Shown: piece after piece, positions 50,203 to 64,000 of the stretch
Numbering within the stretch: position 1 is the stretch's first letter
How the letters are laid out: every line of letters begins with the position of its first letter
Assembly: GCA_963205275.1 (NCBI GenBank)
Contig: CAUJIH010000103.1
Coordinates: 62,001 to 126,000 of the forward strand
Source of the DNA: Verrucomicrobiota bacterium
Lineage (GTDB): Bacteria; Verrucomicrobiota; Verrucomicrobiia; Verrucomicrobiales; DEV007
Length of the DNA stretch: 64,000 nucleotides
Direction: 5' to 3'
Position numbers and translations under genes: made by a program
Notes under the pieces: model-generated
Told to the model about the DNA's origin: nothing
Database searches by the model: none
What the model saw: the letters and a program-made list of their open reading frames with translations, nothing else

Positions 50203-51621
50203 TTGGTATTCAGTTCCCACATCTTCTTGTTCTGGTTCCTGCCGCTGGCGATGCTCATCTATTACGCGTCGCCGAGAAGGGCGCGCTCGTTGGTGCTGAC
50301 GGCGGAGAGTTACGTTTTCTACGGCTGGTGGAATCCCTGGTTCACGCTGCTTATGCTCTTCACTACGACTCTGGATTATATCTGCGGAGCCTGGATCGTC
50401 CGCGAGGAAGCGAGTCGCCTAGAACGCAAGATCGCGCTGTCGATTTCCGTTGCATCGAGCCTGAGCCTGCTCGGTTTCTTCAAATACGCGCTGTTTTTCT
50501 CCGAGAGTCTCGGAACGGTTTCGAGCTGGATGGGATGGCCGACGCTGGAGCCGCCGACCTTCCTCAGCAGCATCGTCCTGCCCGTAGGGATCTCCTTTTA
50601 CACCTTTCAGTCGATGAGCTATGCCATCGATCTCTATCGGGGGGATGCGCAGCGAGCACGGAGTTTTATTGATTTCGCCTGTTATGTGTCGATGTATCCG
50701 CAGCTAGTGGCCGGCCCCATCGTTCGCTACTCGGACGTCGCTGAGCAATTACGACAGAGGGCGCACACGCTGGAGAACTTCGTGGCTGGCTTTACACGAT
50801 TTAACTACGGCTTCGCCAAGAAAATCCTCCTCGCGAATCCCGCAGGAAGCATCGCAGATGCTGTCTTCGAGGCAGGGTCACTGGATGCACCGCTGGCATG
50901 GGCAGGCGTGCTGGGCTATGCGTTTCAGATATATTTCGACTTTTCTGCATATTCGGACATGGCTCTCGGGCTGGGGCGCATGATGGGATTCCACTTTCCT
51001 GAGAACTTTAACTCGCCCTACCAATCGAAGAGCCTCGCGGAATTCTGGAGGCGCTGGCATATCTCGCTCTCGACGTTTTTGCGAGATTATCTCTACATCC
51101 CTCTGGGGGGAAACCGGAAGGGTGCAGGACGAACCTACGCGAATCTGCTCTTCGTGATGCTGGTGGGGGGACTCTGGCACGGGGCACAGTGGACTTTCGT
51201 CGCCTGGGGCGGGCTGCACGGGCTGGTGCTGGCAGCAGAGCGATGGTCGAAGGGATACTTCGCTCCTCGCGGACTGACTCTGCCACGACCCTTGGCCTGG
51301 GCTGTGACGATGACGGTGGTGCTGGCGGGGTGGGTGCTGTTCCGCGCTCCGGACTTTGGCTCGGCGATGGACATTTTCCGAGCATTGATCGGAGGAGGAG
51401 AAAAGGGTGTAGCCACTGAGGTACTGACGGCGACCGTACTCACCTCGCGCGGTCTGGCCATACTCGGTCTCTGCAGTGTGATGATTTTTCTCCCGAATTC
51501 CGCCACCTGGCTGCGCCGCCTCAACGGGTGGAAAGTAGCCTCAGGGCTGCTACTCCTATTTGTCAGCGTCCGTGTGATGGGCCTGCAGGGACACAACCCT
51601 TTCCTTTACTTCCAGTTCTGA
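50203..51621 (+). CDS. MBOAT-family O-acyltransferase (AlgI-like)
   Basis: 472 residues, about 10-12 membrane helices. Signatures: GFAKKILLANPAG, FWRRWHISLSTFLRDYLYIPLGGN and the catalytic His in GGLWHGAQWTF (H326). AlgI-like proteins pass acetyl groups across the inner membrane for polysaccharide O-acetylation. The start is TTG (MVFSSHIF). An AlgJ/AlgX-like gene follows directly, so the two form an acetylation pair. No polymer biosynthesis genes are adjacent. Confidence 0.9.
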   Translation: MVFSSHIFLFWFLPLAMLIYYASPRRARSLVLTAESYVFYGWWNPWFTLLMLFTTTLDYICGAWIVREEASRLERKIALSISVASSLSLLGFFKYALFFSESLGTVSSWMGWPTLEPPTFLSSIVLPVGISFYTFQSMSYAIDLYRGDAQRARSFIDFACYVSMYPQLVAGPIVRYSDVAEQLRQRAHTLENFVAGFTRFNYGFAKKILLANPAGSIADAVFEAGSLDAPLAWAGVLGYAFQIYFDFSAYSDMALGLGRMMGFHFPENFNSPYQSKSLAEFWRRWHISLSTFLRDYLYIPLGGNRKGAGRTYANLLFVMLVGGLWHGAQWTFVAWGGLHGLVLAAERWSKGYFAPRGLTLPRPLAWAVTMTVVLAGWVLFRAPDFGSAMDIFRALIGGGEKGVATEVLTATVLTSRGLAILGLCSVMIFLPNSATWLRRLNGWKVASGLLLLFVSVRVMGLQGHNPFLYFQF

Positions 51622-53211
51622 ATGAATAGCACCCAAGAGACCCTGTGGCCAGAAGACGATCTACAGATCGGGCGCAGCGGACTGCGGATCGCTGTCGCGG
51701 TGTTTTGTGTCTTCGTGCTACTTCCGGCGGTCTCGTTGCTACTTCCCAGTCTGCGACCTGAAACCGTCGGGGAAAAATCACCTGCTTCGCTGGGCGAGCG
51801 ACTCTCTCGATGGGAAAATTCCGCGAAATCCCTGCCACTGTTCGAAGACTGGCGGCGGACGGATCAGGCGATCCTGACTCAATGGATAGGAGCAGGAAAT
51901 CGACGCGTGTTCGTCGGGAAAGGCGGCTGGCTCTACTATCGTCCCGATCTAGAAAGCATCACAGGCAAAGGCCCCTACCATGTGGAGCCGAAATCCGTGA
52001 CTCGCGCCCGTCCAGATCGTGACTGGCAGCCTCCCGTGCCTGTAGTGAAGGCTTTCTCCTCTGATCTGGCAAATCGCGGGGTAAGACTGATCTTCGTACC
52101 TGTACCGACCAAACCCATGATCTGTCGCGACGGTCTGGGACTCGATAGCGGACTGGGAGCACCCACTTTTTGGGAAACAGCGAAGCGGGATTTACAATCG
52201 TCCGGTGTCGAGTTCGTCGATCTCTTGCCTACCATCTCTGCTGCCTCTATCACTGGGACTGACGATGGGAAATTTCTGAAACAAGACACACACTGGACTC
52301 CGTCGATGATGGAAACAGTCGCTCGCAAAATCGCGCAAATCTCACAGACGAAGTCCGGATCTGCTCCGGATGATCGAACAGGGGATGATTCGCGATCATA
52401 CCCTGTAGAGTCTTTGCATCGATCTGCCTCAGGCGATCTAGTGGGGATGCTCGATTTCGGGAAGGCGCAGGAATCAATCTTCCCGCCTGAATCTGCCGAA
52501 CTTCTTCGTCCGGTCAAAACGGAAGCCAGATCCGAATCACCCGATCTCTGCTTAATCGGCGACAGTTTTGCAAACATTTTCGACGATCCCTCACTCGGCT
52601 TTTCTGAGGCAGGGGAGGGCTCCATCGGGGCTGGCTTTGTCGCCCACCTTTCTGCCGCTCTGGGACGCCCCATTGAATCGATCACGATCAATGGCGGCGG
52701 AGCGACGGCCGTACGCGAATCCTTCGCTACTTTACCAGCAACACGTCGTGACGAGATTCGCACTGTCGTCTGGCTGATTTCTGCCCGTGATTTGCTCCTA
52801 CCCGAACTACCTGCCCGGCGCGCCGGGATCGAGTGGCGTCAGGTCGTTCTGCCGGAAGTGAGCACTCCCGGAACTTCCTCGATGCCCACTGCTCCAGCCG
52901 CCTCCGACGAAATTCTCGCCACTCTGCGTGAACTTTCTCCCATCGGCGATCCCACCCAGACTCCGTACGCCTCAGCGATATACTCCGCCCTATTCACTAC
53001 AGAAGACGGAAAAGAGCGAATCGTCTTCTTATGGGCCTTCCGCGACCGAAAACTTGATCCTGCCGCCTCGTTGCAGAAGGGACATCGCTACCGCCTACAC
53101 CTGATTCCGCTGGAACGGAGCACCAACGCCTCGCGTGCGACTCGCATCGACGATCTCTTCCGCATCGATCTCGACCCCTGGTTCGCAGAAACGTGGGAAT
53201 TGGCTGATTGA
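51622..53211 (+). CDS. AlgJ/AlgX-like periplasmic O-acetyltransferase
   Basis: 529 residues: an N-terminal membrane anchor (residues about 24-46, FCVFVLLPAVSLLLP) and a periplasmic SGNH-type domain. Catalytic candidates: D222 and H224 in QDTHWTP, and S315 in CLIGDSFANIF. The last third is extra beta-rich sequence. It starts directly after the MBOAT stop codon. It should transfer acetyl groups to an exported polysaccharide, possibly the one exported by the SLBB proteins. The exact substrate is unknown. Confidence 0.85.
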   Translation: MNSTQETLWPEDDLQIGRSGLRIAVAVFCVFVLLPAVSLLLPSLRPETVGEKSPASLGERLSRWENSAKSLPLFEDWRRTDQAILTQWIGAGNRRVFVGKGGWLYYRPDLESITGKGPYHVEPKSVTRARPDRDWQPPVPVVKAFSSDLANRGVRLIFVPVPTKPMICRDGLGLDSGLGAPTFWETAKRDLQSSGVEFVDLLPTISAASITGTDDGKFLKQDTHWTPSMMETVARKIAQISQTKSGSAPDDRTGDDSRSYPVESLHRSASGDLVGMLDFGKAQESIFPPESAELLRPVKTEARSESPDLCLIGDSFANIFDDPSLGFSEAGEGSIGAGFVAHLSAALGRPIESITINGGGATAVRESFATLPATRRDEIRTVVWLISARDLLLPELPARRAGIEWRQVVLPEVSTPGTSSMPTAPAASDEILATLRELSPIGDPTQTPYASAIYSALFTTEDGKERIVFLWAFRDRKLDPAASLQKGHRYRLHLIPLERSTNASRATRIDDLFRIDLDPWFAETWELAD

Positions 53212-55250: not shown

Positions 55251-56399
55251 ATGCGCTTCCGATGCTCTCGTTTTTCTCTGTTTCTCGCTTCACTTTTTCT
55301 GCTCGGCTCTTTGACACCCCGACAAGCCGCAGCAAATGACCTTCCCGAAACTCTACGCCCGTACTTTTCTCCTCCGACAGAGTATCGGGATCAACTCGGT
55401 AGCTTTCGCAGCCCCCTGAAATTTCTCGATGGATCGACCGTAAAGAACGAAGACGACTGGACGAGGCGACGGAAGGAAATTCTCGATCAGTGGACCGGGC
55501 TGATGGGGCAATGGCCTCCGCTGATTACAGAACCCAAGGTCGAAACTCTCGACAGCGTGACACTGGAGGGTGGACTCGTCCGCCAGCACGTGCGCTTCCT
55601 CTGGACGCCAAAGGAAATGACTAACGGCTATCTTTTCATCCCGGCCAACACGACGGCCCCGCGCCCGGCAGTCCTGACTGTCTTTTACGATCCGGAAACA
55701 GCAGCGGGGATGAATGATAAGCAAAACCGCGACTTCGCCATTCAGCTGGCACGACGAGGTTTTATCACTCTGTCCATCGGCACCACGGAGGCGAGCGAGC
55801 GCAAGGAATACTCACTCTACTGGCCTTCGATTGAAAATGCGGAAGTGCAGCCACTCTCCATGCTAGGCTACGCGGCGGCGAACGCTTGGTATGTGCTGGC
55901 TTCACGACCCGAGGTGGATTCCACCCGCATCGGAGTGATGGGACACTCCTTCGGCGGGAAATGGGCCATGTTTGCCTCGTGTCTATTTGATCGCTTCGCG
56001 TGCGCTGTGTGGAGCGATCCCGGCATCGTGTTTGATGTGCGTCCCAGCGTGAACTACTGGGAACCTTGGTATCTCGGCTACTATCCCAAGCCTTGGCGGC
56101 AGCGGGGAGTTCCCACGGCTGAAAACCCGGCGCATGGCCTCTATCCCAAGCTGCTCGCCGAAGGCCGTGACTTACATGAACTGCATGCACTGATGGCACC
56201 GCGTCCATTTCTGGTATCCGGCGGCTCTGAGGATACGGCCGCTCGCTGGCCTGCGCTCAATCATGCAATCGCCGTAACCCGCGTGCTGGGGTATGAAAAT
56301 CGCGTGGCCATGCAGAATCGCCCCGACCACTCGCCGACCCCGGAATCGAATGAGATCGCCTACCAGTTTCTTGAACACTTCCTGCAACCCGCGAAATAA
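55251..56399 (+). CDS. Secreted alpha/beta hydrolase
   Basis: 382 residues with a signal peptide (FSLFLASLFLLGSLTPRQAA). The hydrolase core has the nucleophile elbow GHSFGG (S233) and a late catalytic His in RPDHSPTP. It resembles acetyl xylan esterase or prolyl-peptidase-type enzymes of the Verrucomicrobia. The N-terminal part (YRDQLGSFRSPLKFLDG) is an extra segment. Substrate unknown; probably esterifed polysaccharide or peptide. Confidence 0.82.
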   Translation: MRFRCSRFSLFLASLFLLGSLTPRQAAANDLPETLRPYFSPPTEYRDQLGSFRSPLKFLDGSTVKNEDDWTRRRKEILDQWTGLMGQWPPLITEPKVETLDSVTLEGGLVRQHVRFLWTPKEMTNGYLFIPANTTAPRPAVLTVFYDPETAAGMNDKQNRDFAIQLARRGFITLSIGTTEASERKEYSLYWPSIENAEVQPLSMLGYAAANAWYVLASRPEVDSTRIGVMGHSFGGKWAMFASCLFDRFACAVWSDPGIVFDVRPSVNYWEPWYLGYYPKPWRQRGVPTAENPAHGLYPKLLAEGRDLHELHALMAPRPFLVSGGSEDTAARWPALNHAIAVTRVLGYENRVAMQNRPDHSPTPESNEIAYQFLEHFLQPAK

Positions 56400-56644: not shown

Positions 56645-56693
56645 GATCTAATCGGAAGTCCGCAATTCTTATCTTGAACGAAAGCCGCGAAGC

Positions 56694-56699
56694 TATAAT
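56694..56699 (+). promoter_or_regulatory. -10 box TATAAT before the FAD oxidoreductase
   Basis: A perfect TATAAT, 16 bases before the ATG at 56716. The -35 is weak: TTGAAC would be only 14 bases away. It makes the upstream TTG start at 56674 unlikely. Confidence 0.4.
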
Positions 56700-56715
56700 A
56701 AAGATCGATGATTCA

Positions 56716-57717
56716 ATGAAGAGAATTGCTTCTATACGATCAGTTCCAAGAAAGTTCGTGTTGAGATCACCTAACAACACTTTCATTCTCGCTCTCATTT
56801 TCGGTATTTTTCCCATTCTGTGCGATGCGGAGCCTGTTGATCTGGTGGTGTATGGGGGAACTCCCGCCGGGATTGCATCAGCCGTCGTCGCCGCTCGCGA
56901 AGGACTCTCCGTCACTCTGATCGAGCCGACGAAATGGGTTGGCGGGATGGTGGCGAGCGGTCTGAGCAGGACAGATAAAGGACGGGAAGAGACAATCGGA
57001 GGCTTCGCCCAAGAGTTTTTAATGCGTGCCGCTGCGATAAAACCGGACACTCCCTTGTGGTATGCCGAGCCGCATGTGAACCTAGAGACCTTTCAGACGA
57101 TGCTTCAGAGCGCCGGAGTTCGTGTGATCACGGATCAGGCTCTAAAATGCGTGGAAAAGCGGCGACCCCGCATTGTGTCTATCACTACAGTCGATGAAAT
57201 CCTCCATCAGGCTCGCGTTTTTATCGATGCCAGCTATGAGGGCGACCTGATGGCGGCAGCCAAGGTTAGCTACACCGTCGAGCGAGAAAGTCGAGAGCAA
57301 TACGGAGAATCGCTCGCCGGATATCACCCCATGCCTATCCGCCCTCGCACCGCCGAGGTGATTGCATCCCTCAGCCCCAGCCTCGACGGCAGTGGACCGT
57401 CCTACATCCACGGGACTCCGATCTCGATTCCCGGTCGGGATGAAGACGGGAATCCACTGTACGGCGTTTTTGCCAATCCCGGCCTGGAACTAGGAGCCGC
57501 CGATCACCGGACGCAGTCCTACAACTTCCGGCTCTGCGTCACGCGACGTCCGGGCCGTTTCCCACGCTTCCGAATCTCCGACCCCTTGTCCCGACGCCCA
57601 TGGGCATTTTGCCCGTGCGACAGCCAGCCTGCCGCAGCGTTCAGGCGATGCCAAGGACAGCCGTTGAATCCCATAGGTACTGCTAACGATCATCCCAACT
57701 CGTCTAGAACCCCATGA
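56716..57717 (+). pseudogene. Truncated FAD-dependent oxidoreductase
   Basis: The frame starts at ATG 56716 with a signal-like helix (FILALIFGIFPILCDA) and the FAD-binding VDLVVYGGTPAGIASAVVAAREG, then GGMVASGLSRTD and FIDASYEGDLMAAAKVSYTVERES. Relatives of this FAD_oxidored family are about 550 residues. The recognisable sequence stops near residue 276 (QSYNFRLCVT, about 57543). From there the frame continues with Arg/Pro-rich, non-family sequence to 57717. Loss of the second half by insertion or deletion is likely. A palindromic element lies at the break. Confidence 0.7.
57596..57614. repeat. Overlapping palindromes at the FAD oxidoreductase break
   Basis: GCCCATGGGC (57596-57605) and GGGCA-TTT-TGCCC (57602-57614) overlap. 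A GACAGCC motif occurs twice nearby (57619 and 57656). The segment 57590-57665 looks like a dispersed palindromic repeat, and it sits where family homology ends. Genome copies must be counted to confirm. Confidence 0.4.
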
Positions 57718-60700
57718 ATGCGACCACAAACCTGTATGCGAGAGCGATCCGCTCTTTAACCGCCGTTTTTCTCACGGCTTGCTTCGCCTTCGGGCTAATA
57801 GCTGATGCGGACGGCTTTGATCCCGAGAAAAAGGCGTATGGGTTTCCCAATCCATACGCCTTGGATTGGGTCGAGGACTTTCAGCCGGGACCATATGTCA
57901 GCTCTCGATGGGGAGTTTGGGAGAGTTCCGAGTATCCCACGGTGGCACCGCTATGGAGCAATGGACTTTCCTACGAGACCATGATGTTCTACACCAATTG
58001 GAACAAGAATCCGAGCGAATCGATTCTAATTCGAGATATGAAGAATCCAGTATACTTGCGGCTGGGTTCCATCTCGTACCGAGGGTCGCAAATGCAGTCT
58101 CAAAAACAAATATATTTGGACTACAATCCAGGAGAACCGGTTAAAGGCTACAACCTCTTTCGACAGTTGAATTTCTGGAAGCTCCAAAATGGGACCAATT
58201 ATCCCTTGCGAGCGCTGAACAAGACGACCTATACCACTGGCTCTTTGATCGATGCTGAGAAAATTGTAATTCTTGTTCATGGATGGAACCCGGGGTCGGA
58301 GAACGATCCCTACGGCGCATCCAATGAATGGAAATCGTTGACGTCCGCATTGAGAGATCTCCAGGACTCAAGTGACTGGAAGTTTTTCTGCTACTATTGG
58401 GAAGACGATGCGGACACCGGAGGGAGGATTCTAGGGGATCGGGAATTCTATCGCGAAGGCTTCGTCAACGGGATCGAAGCGGCTGAGAATGCCCTGCAGC
58501 ATGGAGTACATCTCGGTTCCGAAATTTTCAAGAATCATCCAAACCTCCAACGCGTTCACTTTGTGTGTCATAGCGCCGGGACGTGGGTCGCCCGTGCTGC
58601 AGCCGGGTATCTCCGCAATAAGGACCGACCTGCGAAATCAGCAGGGATTTCAACCCCGCTAACCGTTCAAGTTACTTTGTTGGACCCGTTCATACCAGGA
58701 GTTGAAAACGATCAGTATATAGATGATTCGAACTTGGAAAAATCGGAAATTGACAAGCTGAGCGACTTCGCCGCCGATAACAATGATATCTTCAGGATCT
58801 TTCGCCTTGAGAATTTCCACATCTCTGGGGACATCACGGATCGAGAGCATAACGCTACAAGTCAAAATTTCTCGTGGCCGTTCTCAAATTCGATCAATCT
58901 CGATGTCAATCAGTTTTTCGATATTCAGAAAATATATCTTTACGGGCATAGCATGCCAATTCAATTTTTCGCGAATTCGGTTCGAAATTCATCGGGAGTG
59001 GCGGGATGGAAGGACAGCATGTTCATGCGAGAACCTTTCATTGCTCGTGTCACTCAGTCTCATTCGGGTCCCGTCGGTGTCGGGCAGCGAGTCGAATTCA
59101 CGGTGGAGGCAACCACCCGGCGAGCCGATGCCTTGGGCGAAACGCCGTCGATCAGCTACCAGTGGTTTAAATCCGGCAGCCCGATTCCCGGCGCGACGAG
59201 CAGGACGCACGTCATTTCTTCGGTCCAGGCCGCTGACGCCGGAGCATACGTGTGTCGCGTAAGGTCTTTCAATCTTGATGCTTACACGAAGAAGGAACAG
59301 GGGCTTCTCACCATCGTCGGCCAGACCAACGTGCCCCGCATCACGAGCATCTCGCCCTCCCCCTTGCAGGCCCTGCCGGGTTCGCAGACCCAGGAGATGA
59401 CCATCACGGGCACCGGTTTCTCCGGCAGCAGCACGCTCGTCTTCACCAGCCCGTCTGGCGAGGAGATTCCCAGCAACGCGTCGCGCTTCGTCAGCCGCAG
59501 CGCCACACAGATCCGCTACAACATCGCCGTGGCAGGCGATGCGGGTCCATGGCAGGTCAGGGTCGTGGAGGGTGCCATCCCCTCGCCTCCCCACACCTTC
59601 CTCGTGGGATCCTCGACGCAGCTCGCCACGGGCACCTTGCAGTCACTCGAGATCTCGGGGGCGGCGTACGTGAACGAGGGGACAACGTCCCTCTACAGCG
59701 CCATCGCCAGCTACACGAACGGAGCTACTAAGGCGGTGAACGCCACTTGGTCGCGGGTCGCCGGCACGGCGGCCACCATCTCCGCTGGGCAACTCACGGC
59801 GGGCTCGGTGAGCGGTACCTCGACCGTCGTCATTCGCGCCGCCTACACCGAGGGCGGTGTCGCGAAAGAGGCGCAGATGACGGTCGCCATCCTCGACACC
59901 ACAACGCAGCCCCAGCAGCAGACGACTGCGGCGGAGTTGCTCCGCAACGGCGACTTCGAGGCGGGCAACGACTACTGGAGCCTCTCCAATGCGGTCGTCT
60001 CCAGCGGCGTGTTCCCCTATGCGGGTCAGCGCTACGCCGTCCTCGGGGAAACGCACAACGCCAACGACACCCTCGCGCAAACCGTAGCCATCCCGTCCGG
60101 CAGCGGAACCGTGAGTCTGAGCTTCGCGCTGAACATCACCTCGGAGGACCAGGGGACGGTGGCTAACGATACCTTCACCGTATCGCTGAGGAATCCGAAC
60201 ACGGGCGCACCGCTGTCCACCCTGTTCATCGCCTCGAACCGCGACCGGAATCCCGGGGCGGGAAGGAACTTCTACCAGACCCGTCGCTTCGACCTCGGCG
60301 CGTTCAAGGGGCAGACCGTCCGCCTCCAGTTCGCGGCGACGACGAACGCCACCCTCTCCACTTCGTTCCGCGTCGATCAGGTCTCGATCTCCCGCGAGAC
60401 GACCTCCACCGTCACGCCCACTGTCGACTCCCTCACCATTGAGGGACCGGCCATCGTCGACGAGAGCAGCGAGACGGTCTACTCGGCCTACTCGATCCAG
60501 TCCGACGGTCGGAAGGTGCGCGTCACTCCGACCTGGTCCGAGGATTCCTCGAAGGCGAGCATCGACGCAAACGGGAAGCTGAAGACCTTCTCGGTCAGCG
60601 GCGACCAGCAGGTGCAGGTGCAGGCTGAATACCGCTCGGGCAGCGAGTGGCGCACTGCCACCAAATCGGTGACGATACGGGACCTGGACCTGAACACGAC

Positions 60701-63700
60701 GCAGCAGTACACGCTCAACGTCATTCCAGCCGCGAATGGATCGGTGAAGGTCTCTCCACCCCAGTCCTTCTTCTCGGAGGGAACGAGAGTCACGCTGACC
60801 GCCGTCCCTGACTCGGGCTACGAATTCATGGAGTGGAGCCGAGATCTCGGCGGGGTTGGCATCACTTCGTATCTCAAGATGAACGGTAACAAGGTGGTCG
60901 AGGCCCACTTCCGCCCTCTCCCCGTGGGCACGGGATCGGTGCGGGTCGAGATCCTCCCACAGGCGGCGGCGGAGATGGGCGCACGATGGCGCCTGGAGGG
61001 TTCTAGCGCATGGCAGGCATCGGGCACCACGCTGTCGGCCCTGCCACTCGGCCCGGCTCAGATTGAGTTCTCCTACCTCGACGGCTGGATCACACCGCCC
61101 GCTCGAAGTATCACCGTGCTGGAGGGGCGCGGCCTCGGCTTGATCGGCGAATACGGCGCGAACAGCAGCGCTCCCTTCGTCGAGTCGATTTCACCCTCCA
61201 GCGGCCCGGTCGAGGGGGGAACCCAGGTCGTCATCACCGGGGGCGGTCTCGACCGGATCTCCTCGGTTCGCTTCGGCTCCGCTCCCGCAGCCCGTATCGA
61301 TGTGATCAACCCGTCCCGGGTTCTCGCCGTGACGCCTCCCGGCCCTGGCTACGGGACCGTCTCCGTCACTGTCGAGGCGGGCGGACAGGTCTTCGAACGG
61401 CGGAACGGGTTCACCTACGCAACCGCCCAGGGCGAAAACATGGAGCTGCTGGGGCAGGTCGGTGGCGGGGTGGGAGCCATCGATGTGAAGGGAGACTACG
61501 CCTATCTCAGCTTGGGGCCTTCGTTGGTCGTCGTCGATGTTCGGAACAAGGCGGCCCTCGCCGAAGTCGGGCGCATCCCAATGGCGTCGAATATCCGCGA
61601 TCTTGCCCTGCACGGCAGCCACGTCTTCGCTGTGCCCTACGAAGGCGGGATTCAGGCCGTGGACGTCGCCGACGTCCGGTCCCCCCGTCTCGTCGCCGCC
61701 ATTCCCACGACGGGCGAAGCTCTCTCGGTTACAAGCGTCGGAGGCTACGTTCTCATCGGCGACAGCGCGGAGGGTCTGATCGTGATCGATGCGCAAAATC
61801 CCGCCTCCCCGAGAATCGTCCACCGCGTGCCCCTGCCTGGGCGGCCCAACGACCTCGAAATCGTCCAGCAAGGCGGCAGGACCCTCTGCCTCGTCGCCGC
61901 AGAGTCGGCGGGCCTAATGATTCTGGACGTGACCAATCCGGCGGCGGCCACCATACTGGGGAACTCCTCGGTAGGGGCGGACGCCTATGGGGTCACCTCG
62001 GATGGGACCTACGCCTACGTCGGCTGCTTTTGGTCGAACGGCGGTCTTCATGTGGTGCGGATTTCCAATCCGGCGGCGCCGGTCCACATCGCCAATTTTC
62101 CCCCCAATTTCATGACGGATGTCGCCCGGTCTGGATCGACGGTCTGGGGAGTAGACAGTCAGCTTTGTTCGGTCAATGTCACCAATCCGGCGAATCCGGT
62201 GAGAGAGTCGGTTCTGGATCTCAGTGGAAACACCAGTGGTAAAAGATGCCGCTACGAATCCGGCTTCCTTTATGTCGCATCGGGGATGGGAGGGTTGGAG
62301 GTCTTCGACACTTCCAATCCCCTTCTGCCGGTGCTCCGAGGCCGCTTTCGTGCCCCCTTCGGATGGGCTCAGCAAGTCCGCGTGTCCGGCGATCACGCCT
62401 ACGTCGCTGCCGACTTCGAGGGCCTTCAAGTGGTCGATGTGCGGGACTCGATTCGGCCCGTTGTGGTCGGTCAGGCCGCTTCCGACGGTCAGGCCGAAAC
62501 CGTTGAGGTATCGGGAAACCATGCCTTCGTCACAAATGCCGGTGGAAATGTCGACCTATTTTCCGTCACAGTTCCTTCGGCACCGTCGAAACTCGTTACT
62601 CACAAGGGTTTTTGGGCTTTGGGAACGCTGGTTTCCTCAAATCGCTTCTATCTGTATGGGAGTGACTACAATCAGAATGGATCACCATCCATACCAATGA
62701 TCGGAATCTACGATCTTGCCAATCCGGTGAGCTTCTCCCGCGTCGGCGGACTCGCACTCTCCACCTCCTACATTTGGAGGGGCTCTTATTCGAATTCGAA
62801 AATATTCGGAGCCCATTCGACGACGGGACAATTCTCCTTTATCGACGTTGCGACCGACAGCTCTCCAAGCGTCGTCCACACCGGAATTCATGGGACCACC
62901 GTAACGAGAGACATTGTAACGCATGGGAACTTCGCATACTTGGCACTGGACATGGGAGGTGTGAAAGTCCTCGACATCTCCAACCTTTCGAATCCAACGG
63001 AGGTCCGCACCTTTGCCGACGAGACCCTCCAAGCATTCAGCCTCCATGTCGACGCAGAAACTCTCTACGTCGCCGCCTGGGGTATGGGTATGGGAGTCCA
63101 CGCCTACGATCTGGGCGATCCTTCCGATCCGAAGCTGGAAGCCTTCTACAGAACGCCAAGCCTACCGCGTCACATCGATACGGCGGGCGACAAGGTCTAT
63201 GTCGCCGATTCGAACGCCGGGCTGCTGATATTGCGTCATCACGACGTCCGTCCCCCGACGCTGACAATCACTTCGCCGGCGACGGGTGGGGCGATCACGT
63301 CCTTGGAACCCACGATCTCCTTGGCCGGAAGCGCATCCGACAATCGCGGCGTCTCCAAGGTCTACTGGACTAGCGACCGGGGTAGGAGCGGCGTAGCCAT
63401 CGGGACGGAGACGTGGCAGATCCCGGGGATCGAGCTCGAGGACGGCGTCAACGAGATCATCGTTACGGCGATCGATGCTGCGGGGAACGTCGCCACGGGA
63501 ACGCTCGAAGTTGCCTTCGAGGAGCGCCGTCCCACGCTCACTAGCCCGTCCGAGGTATCCCTGAGCGTCGGCACCGAAACGTCCTTCGCCCTCACTGCAT
63601 CGCAAAACCCGACGCGATTCTTCGCCGAGGGTCTGCCGGAGGGCCTCGTCTTGGACGAGGAGACCGGCGTGATTTCCGGCGTCCCTCTCGATGACGGCTC

Positions 63701-64000
63701 CATGGAGATCGTCGTCTTCCTCACCAACGACCAAGGGACGAAGGCGAGCCGCTTCACGTTGACCGTCGAGCATCCGAACACGATGGTGGGGAATCCGATC
63801 ATGCGGGGCGATTGGCGTCCCGACCTCCTCGTCGGCACCTCCCTGAAGCGGATGCGCGGAAACAATGTCTACAACCGGACCGGGGCCAGGCAAACGGCCA
63901 CCCAGACGGTCCGCCGGAAAAGTTCGCTTCATTTCTTCTTTAGGATCGAGAACGACGGGAGGACCGACGATGTGATCCGCGCCCAATCCGGGAAAGGGAG
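57714..64000 (+). CDS. Giant secreted multidomain lipase-like protein (partial, no stop in window)
   Basis: The frame has no stop from ATG 57714 to the window end (about 2096 codons). A signal peptide (SLTAVFLTACFAFGLIADA) is followed by an alpha/beta hydrolase: HGWNPG (H189), CHSAG (S287), LLDP (D324) and YGHSMP (H412) make a candidate triad. Then in order: Ig-like (446-533), IPT/TIG-like (539-633), Big_2-like (644-730), jelly-roll carbohydrate-binding-like (745-893), Big-like (903-993), InlB-type repeat (999-1071), PEGA-like (1075-1150), IPT/TIG (1151-1236), LVIVD beta-propeller (1242-1844), Ig-like (1845-1936), He_PIG-like (1940-2022), and an unknown end (2022 onward, RIENDGRTDDVIR). It is probably an exported surface protein. 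Boundaries are by eye. Confidence 0.85.
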   Translation, partial: MNATTNLYARAIRSLTAVFLTACFAFGLIADADGFDPEKKAYGFPNPYALDWVEDFQPGPYVSSRWGVWESSEYPTVAPLWSNGLSYETMMFYTNWNKNPSESILIRDMKNPVYLRLGSISYRGSQMQSQKQIYLDYNPGEPVKGYNLFRQLNFWKLQNGTNYPLRALNKTTYTTGSLIDAEKIVILVHGWNPGSENDPYGASNEWKSLTSALRDLQDSSDWKFFCYYWEDDADTGGRILGDREFYREGFVNGIEAAENALQHGVHLGSEIFKNHPNLQRVHFVCHSAGTWVARAAAGYLRNKDRPAKSAGISTPLTVQVTLLDPFIPGVENDQYIDDSNLEKSEIDKLSDFAADNNDIFRIFRLENFHISGDITDREHNATSQNFSWPFSNSINLDVNQFFDIQKIYLYGHSMPIQFFANSVRNSSGVAGWKDSMFMREPFIARVTQSHSGPVGVGQRVEFTVEATTRRADALGETPSISYQWFKSGSPIPGATSRTHVISSVQAADAGAYVCRVRSFNLDAYTKKEQGLLTIVGQTNVPRITSISPSPLQALPGSQTQEMTITGTGFSGSSTLVFTSPSGEEIPSNASRFVSRSATQIRYNIAVAGDAGPWQVRVVEGAIPSPPHTFLVGSSTQLATGTLQSLEISGAAYVNEGTTSLYSAIASYTNGATKAVNATWSRVAGTAATISAGQLTAGSVSGTSTVVIRAAYTEGGVAKEAQMTVAILDTTTQPQQQTTAAELLRNGDFEAGNDYWSLSNAVVSSGVFPYAGQRYAVLGETHNANDTLAQTVAIPSGSGTVSLSFALNITSEDQGTVANDTFTVSLRNPNTGAPLSTLFIASNRDRNPGAGRNFYQTRRFDLGAFKGQTVRLQFAATTNATLSTSFRVDQVSISRETTSTVTPTVDSLTIEGPAIVDESSETVYSAYSIQSDGRKVRVTPTWSEDSSKASIDANGKLKTFSVSGDQQVQVQAEYRSGSEWRTATKSVTIRDLDLNTTQQYTLNVIPAANGSVKVSPPQSFFSEGTRVTLTAVPDSGYEFMEWSRDLGGVGITSYLKMNGNKVVEAHFRPLPVGTGSVRVEILPQAAAEMGARWRLEGSSAWQASGTTLSALPLGPAQIEFSYLDGWITPPARSITVLEGRGLGLIGEYGANSSAPFVESISPSSGPVEGGTQVVITGGGLDRISSVRFGSAPAARIDVINPSRVLAVTPPGPGYGTVSVTVEAGGQVFERRNGFTYATAQGENMELLGQVGGGVGAIDVKGDYAYLSLGPSLVVVDVRNKAALAEVGRIPMASNIRDLALHGSHVFAVPYEGGIQAVDVADVRSPRLVAAIPTTGEALSVTSVGGYVLIGDSAEGLIVIDAQNPASPRIVHRVPLPGRPNDLEIVQQGGRTLCLVAAESAGLMILDVTNPAAATILGNSSVGADAYGVTSDGTYAYVGCFWSNGGLHVVRISNPAAPVHIANFPPNFMTDVARSGSTVWGVDSQLCSVNVTNPANPVRESVLDLSGNTSGKRCRYESGFLYVASGMGGLEVFDTSNPLLPVLRGRFRAPFGWAQQVRVSGDHAYVAADFEGLQVVDVRDSIRPVVVGQAASDGQAETVEVSGNHAFVTNAGGNVDLFSVTVPSAPSKLVTHKGFWALGTLVSSNRFYLYGSDYNQNGSPSIPMIGIYDLANPVSFSRVGGLALSTSYIWRGSYSNSKIFGAHSTTGQFSFIDVATDSSPSVVHTGIHGTTVTRDIVTHGNFAYLALDMGGVKVLDISNLSNPTEVRTFADETLQAFSLHVDAETLYVAAWGMGMGVHAYDLGDPSDPKLEAFYRTPSLPRHIDTAGDKVYVADSNAGLLILRHHDVRPPTLTITSPATGGAITSLEPTISLAGSASDNRGVSKVYWTSDRGRSGVAIGTETWQIPGIELEDGVNEIIVTAIDAAGNVATGTLEVAFEERRPTLTSPSEVSLSVGTETSFALTASQNPTRFFAEGLPEGLVLDEETGVISGVPLDDGSMEIVVFLTNDQGTKASRFTLTVEHPNTMVGNPIMRGDWRPDLLVGTSLKRMRGNNVYNRTGARQTATQTVRRKSSLHFFFRIENDGRTDDVIRAQSGKG

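Follow-up and report, generated by a model that had tools for sequence, protein, structure and literature searches.

The stretch of verrucomicrobial DNA analysed here (64,000 nucleotides, referred to as the window) ends inside a single giant open reading frame (ORF), and the question that this locus raises is what kind of protein such a frame encodes and which function could unite its many parts. On the + strand the frame is stop-free from position 57714 to 63998 and on to the window edge (57714..64000), which places residues 1-2095 of the protein inside the window. The window derives from contig C103 of a 4.08-Mb genome assembled in 109 contigs, and the two sequences are identical where they overlap. 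The initial annotation had described an uninterrupted frame up to the edge that a stop codon or a frameshift would discredit; no stop occurs in the window, and the frame stays open past position 64000 until a stop codon 250 bases beyond the edge, giving a full protein of 2,178 amino acids. Judged by sequence comparison, this frame is not a chance ORF, because relatives in other phyla align with the protein co-linearly over 850-913 columns.

The first part of the protein is consistent with an exported enzyme. Residues 1-34 (57714..57815; this and all following coordinates of the giant gene are on the + strand) were read by eye as a putative Sec signal peptide (MNATTNLYARAIRSLTAVFLTACFAFGLIADADG). 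They are followed by an N-terminal region (residues 35-147; 57816..58154) that the AlphaFold2 (AF2) model predicts with a pLDDT under 50, and N-terminal extensions of similar length occur in some relatives (e.g., L021, L030, L018, L029, L026 and L019). From about residue 148 the AF2 model adopts an alpha/beta hydrolase fold, and the resulting head (residues 148-440; 58155..59033) is supported by AF2, Foldseek, VIA-align and profile searches. The pLDDT is mostly 85-96 in the core strands and the nucleophile helix, with a mean of only 67 for the head model overall. A hydrolase fold within residues 150-430, on which the earlier reading of a lipase-like head hinged, is thus what the model predicts, its core at good confidence, and the profile and the conserved triad speak for the same assignment. 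The triad proposed in the initial annotation proved to be numbered exactly: Ser287 (58572..58574; motif CHSAG) would be the nucleophile, Asp324 (58683..58685; LLDPFIP) the acid and His412 (58947..58949; YGHSMPIQFF) the catalytic histidine. All three are invariant in an alignment of 28 head relatives (28/28) from several phyla that share 18-34% identity and in which only ten columns, those of the triad included, are invariant. The nucleophile elbow, CHSAG in this protein, is mostly AHSAG in the relatives. In the model, the nucleophile strand (251-258) is followed next by strand 288-296, at whose end Asp324 is located. This beta6 position of the acid is not specific for one family, since it is reported for many alpha/beta-hydrolase clusters (PMC11878206).

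The affiliation of the head within the alpha/beta hydrolases emerged from structural and profile comparisons. The three best Foldseek matches are hornet phospholipase A1, pancreatic lipase-related protein 2 and pancreatic lipase, and in VIA-align sixteen entries of the pancreatic-lipase group reach Z-scores of 14.9-17.6, with all others at 12.1 or lower. Searches of solved structures with the single head sequence returned chance antibody matches only, and a seven-row head profile found nothing useful; a 28-row profile was needed, which, without recourse to structure, finds in the PDB sequences pancreatic lipase-related protein 1 (1rp1) with E = 3.3e-7 over the region from the oxyanion segment to the elbow, together with others of the same group. 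As far as profiles and the predicted structure can tell, the nearest solved relatives of the head are therefore those of the animal pancreatic-lipase group, which includes lipoprotein lipase. In pancreatic lipase, the catalytic acid is carried by the strand that follows the nucleophile strand immediately. The head shares with the group this placement of the acid in a Ser-Asp-His triad, the fold itself, an HGW/HGF oxyanion segment, and a His region that is followed by an aromatic helix. It differs in its elbow, which is [C/A]HSAG and not of the GxSxG type (GHSLG in the animal enzymes), in its bacterial origin and its place in a giant modular protein, and in being followed by an Ig domain and not by the C2-like/PLAT domain. 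This last domain is optional in the group, because hornet phospholipase A1 (4qnn), with 297 residues, has no room for a second domain. No Pfam model scores above its cut-off in the head. The Pfam family of these lipases, PF00151, has no match in the protein and matches one of seven relatives at E = 0.22; because of the different elbow and because the PF00151 cut-off is not reached, the head is a relative of the pancreatic-lipase group and not a member of PF00151. Six of the seven relatives have weak matches to DUF676/DUF900 (PF05057, PF05990) that span the oxyanion segment and the elbow, but the giant protein remains below the curated cut-off and the best structural and profile matches are to the pancreatic-lipase group.

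Relatives of the head were sought in 387 genomes across the phylum and in a profile scan of 84,980 species genomes. In the latter, the alignment-based scan yielded 59 loci and the scan with a single protein none. The relatives belong to Verrucomicrobiota, Kiritimatiellae, Lentisphaerae, Brocadia, Sumerlaeota, Elusimicrobia and a few proteobacterial MAGs, and about 20 bacterial loci, mostly of Verrucomicrobiota and allied phyla, carry the head, in most cases on an Ig-type stalk. An Ig match directly after the head is found in most relatives, and several also contain a beta-propeller, of the RCC1 (L018), NHL (L025, L027) or LVIVD type (L031, L032); an SBBP match in L020 is sub-threshold. The giant protein is co-linear with L020, L022, L028 and L024 (the last from Brocadia) over the 850-913 columns mentioned above, at 29-33% identity, and matches L031 and L032 piecewise up to residues ~2021 and ~1946, respectively. 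Branching within the core family is not resolved in the head tree. Bacteria thus carry an overlooked pancreatic-lipase-like family that usually heads multi-module proteins of the surface type. Few obvious relatives of the animal pancreatic lipases are known from bacteria, and the head family is for this reason a concrete group in which the origin and spread of the pancreatic-lipase fold could be tested. Short planctomycete hydrolases (~350 amino acids; L042-L076) with the same triad, secreted-looking and DUF676/DUF900-like, form a separate, strongly supported clade that is sister to the long family.

Behind the head, the protein is built from non-catalytic repeat modules, which account for most of its length (residues 441-2178). 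The initial annotation had counted at least ten beta modules, and ten are indeed present when the head, the propellers and the C-terminal module are set aside, a count that takes in three modules without a curated match (the one formerly labelled PEGA and two Big-like modules). The Ig domain (residues 441-535; 59034..59318) matches Pfam Ig_3 at 452-517 just below the cut-off (E = 5.3e-6), and is followed by a first TIG-like domain (541-637; 59334..59624), which alone scores 18.4 bits against a cut-off of 20.9 for PF01833. Big-like module A (641-730; 59634..59903) has no Pfam match; it is related as an internal repeat to Big-like module B (903-990; 60420..60683), likewise without a curated Pfam match, and is also repeated in relatives. 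Between the two lies a MAM/jelly-roll-like module (735-895; 59916..60398) with a match below cut-off to PF20773 (E = 6.5e-5). Next come an InlB-type repeat domain (999-1067; 60708..60914; PF18998, Flg_new_2, E = 5.2e-15), the module at residues 1072-1150 (60927..61163), and a second TIG domain (1154-1235; 61173..61418; PF01833, E = 3e-14). Of the module names given earlier, InlB, TIG and LVIVD are backed by Pfam matches above cut-off and Ig by the match just below it, but the PEGA identity was dropped, as a Pfam search with residues 1071-1150 gave nothing at E <= 5. Beyond the propellers follow a Big_7 domain (1848-1934; 63255..63515; PF17957, above cut-off) and a He_PIG domain (1940-2018; 63531..63767; PF05345, E = 2.2e-8). 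The complete set of Pfam matches above cut-off comprises LVIVD, Flg_new_2, two TIG stretches, He_PIG and Big_7.

The long LVIVD propeller announced in the initial annotation is confirmed by PF08309 (148.3 bits against a cut-off of 20.2, E = 3.5e-44, in six repeat stretches) and can be refined to two predicted tandem propellers. The AF2 model shows about 14 four-stranded blades, seven in propeller 1 (1244-1532; 61443..62309) and seven in propeller 2 (1538-1841; 62325..63236), the first predicted with good confidence and the second, which is weaker in parts, with patchy confidence. Tandem double propellers, e.g., Elp2 and AIP1, are among the best Foldseek matches of the region. The choice-of-anchor B family (TIGR04312) is not reached, with 51.3 bits against the curated 100 bits. 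LVIVD repeats are known from cell-surface proteins of archaea and bacteria (Adindla et al., 2004; PMC2447325); the giant protein differs in having two predicted tandem propellers inside an enzyme. The domain order as a whole, for which the initial annotation knew of no characterised protein, is not unique, because L031 and L032, two other Verrucomicrobia proteins, likewise carry Ig, InlB, TIG and LVIVD after the head (head-Ig-InlB-TIG-LVIVD) in nearly the same arrangement; the part of the claim that stands is that no characterised example was found.

The sequence past position 64000, which was to be checked for a sorting signal such as a PEP-CTERM or T9SS-like tail, contains neither a PEP-CTERM nor a recognised T9SS tail and ends instead in a shared module of ~150 residues (2030-2178; 63801..64000 for the start, which alone is in the window), identified by profile and by its copies in other ORFs and located at L002:8760-9248 of contig C103, mostly outside the window. 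Five secreted-looking and otherwise unrelated ORFs of the same genome match residues ~2030-2178 in their own C-terminal parts; among them are a CAP-domain protein, a glucose/sorbosone-dehydrogenase-like protein and beta-helix-like proteins. By profile, the module has eight copies in this genome and is present in 15 genomes of the genus, with at least 61 copies each in the sister genomes G005 and G026, where all 61 candidates scored were matches. The profile found none in 23 relatives outside the genus, and a single weak match elsewhere in the 387-genome sample of the phylum. When 40 sister-genome regions and the five own-genome ORFs (L100-L104, L135-L174) were compared, 49 ORFs matched, two of them being pieces of one broken-frame copy; in all 47 full-length ORFs the module is C-terminal, mostly ending within 10 residues of the stop, and the final residue is Lys or Arg in 39 of 48 sequences (the 47 ORFs and the giant protein). 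The consensus reads QPDLxIG...G..xYN..G.GQ...NDG...D...NVTAA...G...S..D...DxV...K/R. The N-terminal parts to which the module is attached are diverse (GSDH, NHL, CAP, FG-GAP, fn3, CBM_4_9, PhoX, MauG and others).

Since it is shared, strictly C-terminal, lineage-restricted and present on diverse exported proteins, the module is a candidate sorting or anchoring signal. In its extreme C-terminal position on many unrelated exported proteins and its often basic end it resembles the PEP-CTERM (PMC1569441), GlyGly-CTERM (PMC3237569) and T9SS type A tails, but it differs from them in its length of ~150 residues without a visible transmembrane segment, in its almost complete restriction to one genus, and in having no NCBIfam or Pfam match in the tail of the giant protein and only chance-looking NCBIfam matches in the tails of the other proteins. 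SprA (PF14349), the translocon protein of type IX secretion, was found neither in 12 genomes of the genus nor in the controls. None of the head relatives carries the module. The module may mark an undescribed, genus-restricted sorting or anchoring route in Verrucomicrobiales that serves dozens of exported proteins per genome, and in the present gene the module would have been added to a lipase-headed giant with relatives in other phyla that have different C-terminal sequences; we give this proposal somewhat less than even chances. If the module is a true sorting signal, it would open an export route in a phylum in which such routes are poorly known. Hydrolase-headed modular surface proteins are already known, and what surprises more in the giant protein is its C-terminal module. 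The C-termini of seven head relatives (L018, L020, L021, L028, L030, L031 and L038) differ from it and contain a ...F[YFL]R[LVI]... motif, which may belong to a further module shared at this end.

To the features computed for this gene, namely an intact ORF, a hydrolase fold, a conserved triad, a recurring module order and the C-terminal position of the last module, the reading that we favour adds a catalytic and a binding role at the cell surface: with a probability slightly above even, the product of the gene is a secreted serine carboxylester hydrolase of the lipase or phospholipase type that is held at the surface. The protein would be exported via its Sec signal peptide, and the pancreatic-lipase-like head would cleave an ester bond through Ser287-Asp324-His412, most likely that of a lipid or of some other acyl ester insoluble in water, encountered at a surface or interface. 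Projection of the head would fall to the stalk of Ig, TIG, Big, InlB and MAM-like modules and to the two LVIVD propellers, and the InlB, MAM-like and propeller modules may bind a partner, a glycan or a particle. The C-terminal module, which many unrelated secreted proteins of the genus also carry, would sort or anchor the protein. Surface attachment is deduced from this shared module because the giant protein showed no recognisable membrane anchor, lipobox or known sorting motif. Counting against this reading are the unclassical elbow, a PF00151 score short of its cut-off, and the low pLDDT of residues 35-147 and of the head model as a whole. The evidence agrees with the earlier suggestion of an enzyme at the surface, carried by an adhesin-like stalk, with the surface location and the binding of a partner or polymer as presumed parts of it.

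The strongest competitor, although an unlikely one, is that the head acts as an esterase on polysaccharides, from which it would strip acyl or other ester groups in the manner of acetyl- or feruloyl-esterases, with a polymer-binding stalk in which the propeller, InlB and MAM-like modules would be the glycan-binding part. This would suit a lineage that lives on polysaccharides, the CBM_4_9 domains in some of the other proteins with the C-terminal module, and a nearby secreted hydrolase gene (55251-56399) with prolyl-oligopeptidase, dienelactone-hydrolase and glucuronyl-esterase matches. However, the nearest folds of the head are lipases and phospholipases, well apart from carbohydrate esterases, and an insertion of lid length between the acid and the His appears to resemble that of interfacial lipases. 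Still less probable is that the protein acts mainly as an adhesin or scaffold, in which the head has been kept as a binding part and catalyses little or nothing. The dominance of non-catalytic repeat modules from residue 441 onwards is in line with this, but a pseudo-enzyme would be expected to lose its triad and elbow residues, and these are invariant over the 28 divergent sequences, the short stand-alone planctomycete hydrolases included. Interbacterial conflict often involves effectors of the lipase and phospholipase type, and Tle3 is matched weakly (best E = 0.13) by two of seven head relatives; nevertheless, a contact-dependent, polymorphic-toxin-like effector with the hydrolase as its toxic part is very improbable, given that polymorphic toxins have their enzyme at the C-terminus and not at the N-terminus of a giant protein, and that no immunity gene was recognised next to the gene and no delivery domain was found. 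The reading as a surface-held lipase or phospholipase is the one retained here.

The composition and surroundings of the gene bear on its history, and on the equally remote chance that it is a chimera produced by misassembly or binning. GC3 is 0.54 in the head and climbs to 0.85-0.88 over the stalk's first half, while the other genes of the window stay at about 0.6 (range 0.52-0.70), and the gene lies between a truncated FAD-dependent oxidoreductase gene and an IS3-type transposase; yet its 2,178 codons form a single open frame, the order from head to propeller recurs in L031 and L032, of which L032 has a similar GC3 pattern, and the C-terminal module is typical of the genus. The oxidoreductase gene directly upstream (56674..57717, + strand) covers profile positions 1-206 of 416 only, is interrupted after about residue 299 and overlaps the giant gene by four bases (ATGA); its missing half was not found elsewhere in the genome. 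The head is present in two of the 34 genomes of the genus searched, its own included. The GC mosaic, this patchy distribution and the broken neighbouring gene favour lateral gain, and suggest that module exchange and lateral movement of the giant gene are probable though not proven, since the similar GC3 pattern in the distant relative L032 means that composition alone is no proof of horizontal gain. The IS3-type transposase frame, with an HTH_21 domain and an integrase core (L002:10267-10947), lies ~1.0 kb after the stop codon of the giant gene, beyond the window and at the contig end. Further upstream in the window (50203-53211), the genes for an MBOAT O-acyltransferase and an AlgX-like SGNH acetyltransferase adjoin each other and are probably a polysaccharide O-acetylation pair.
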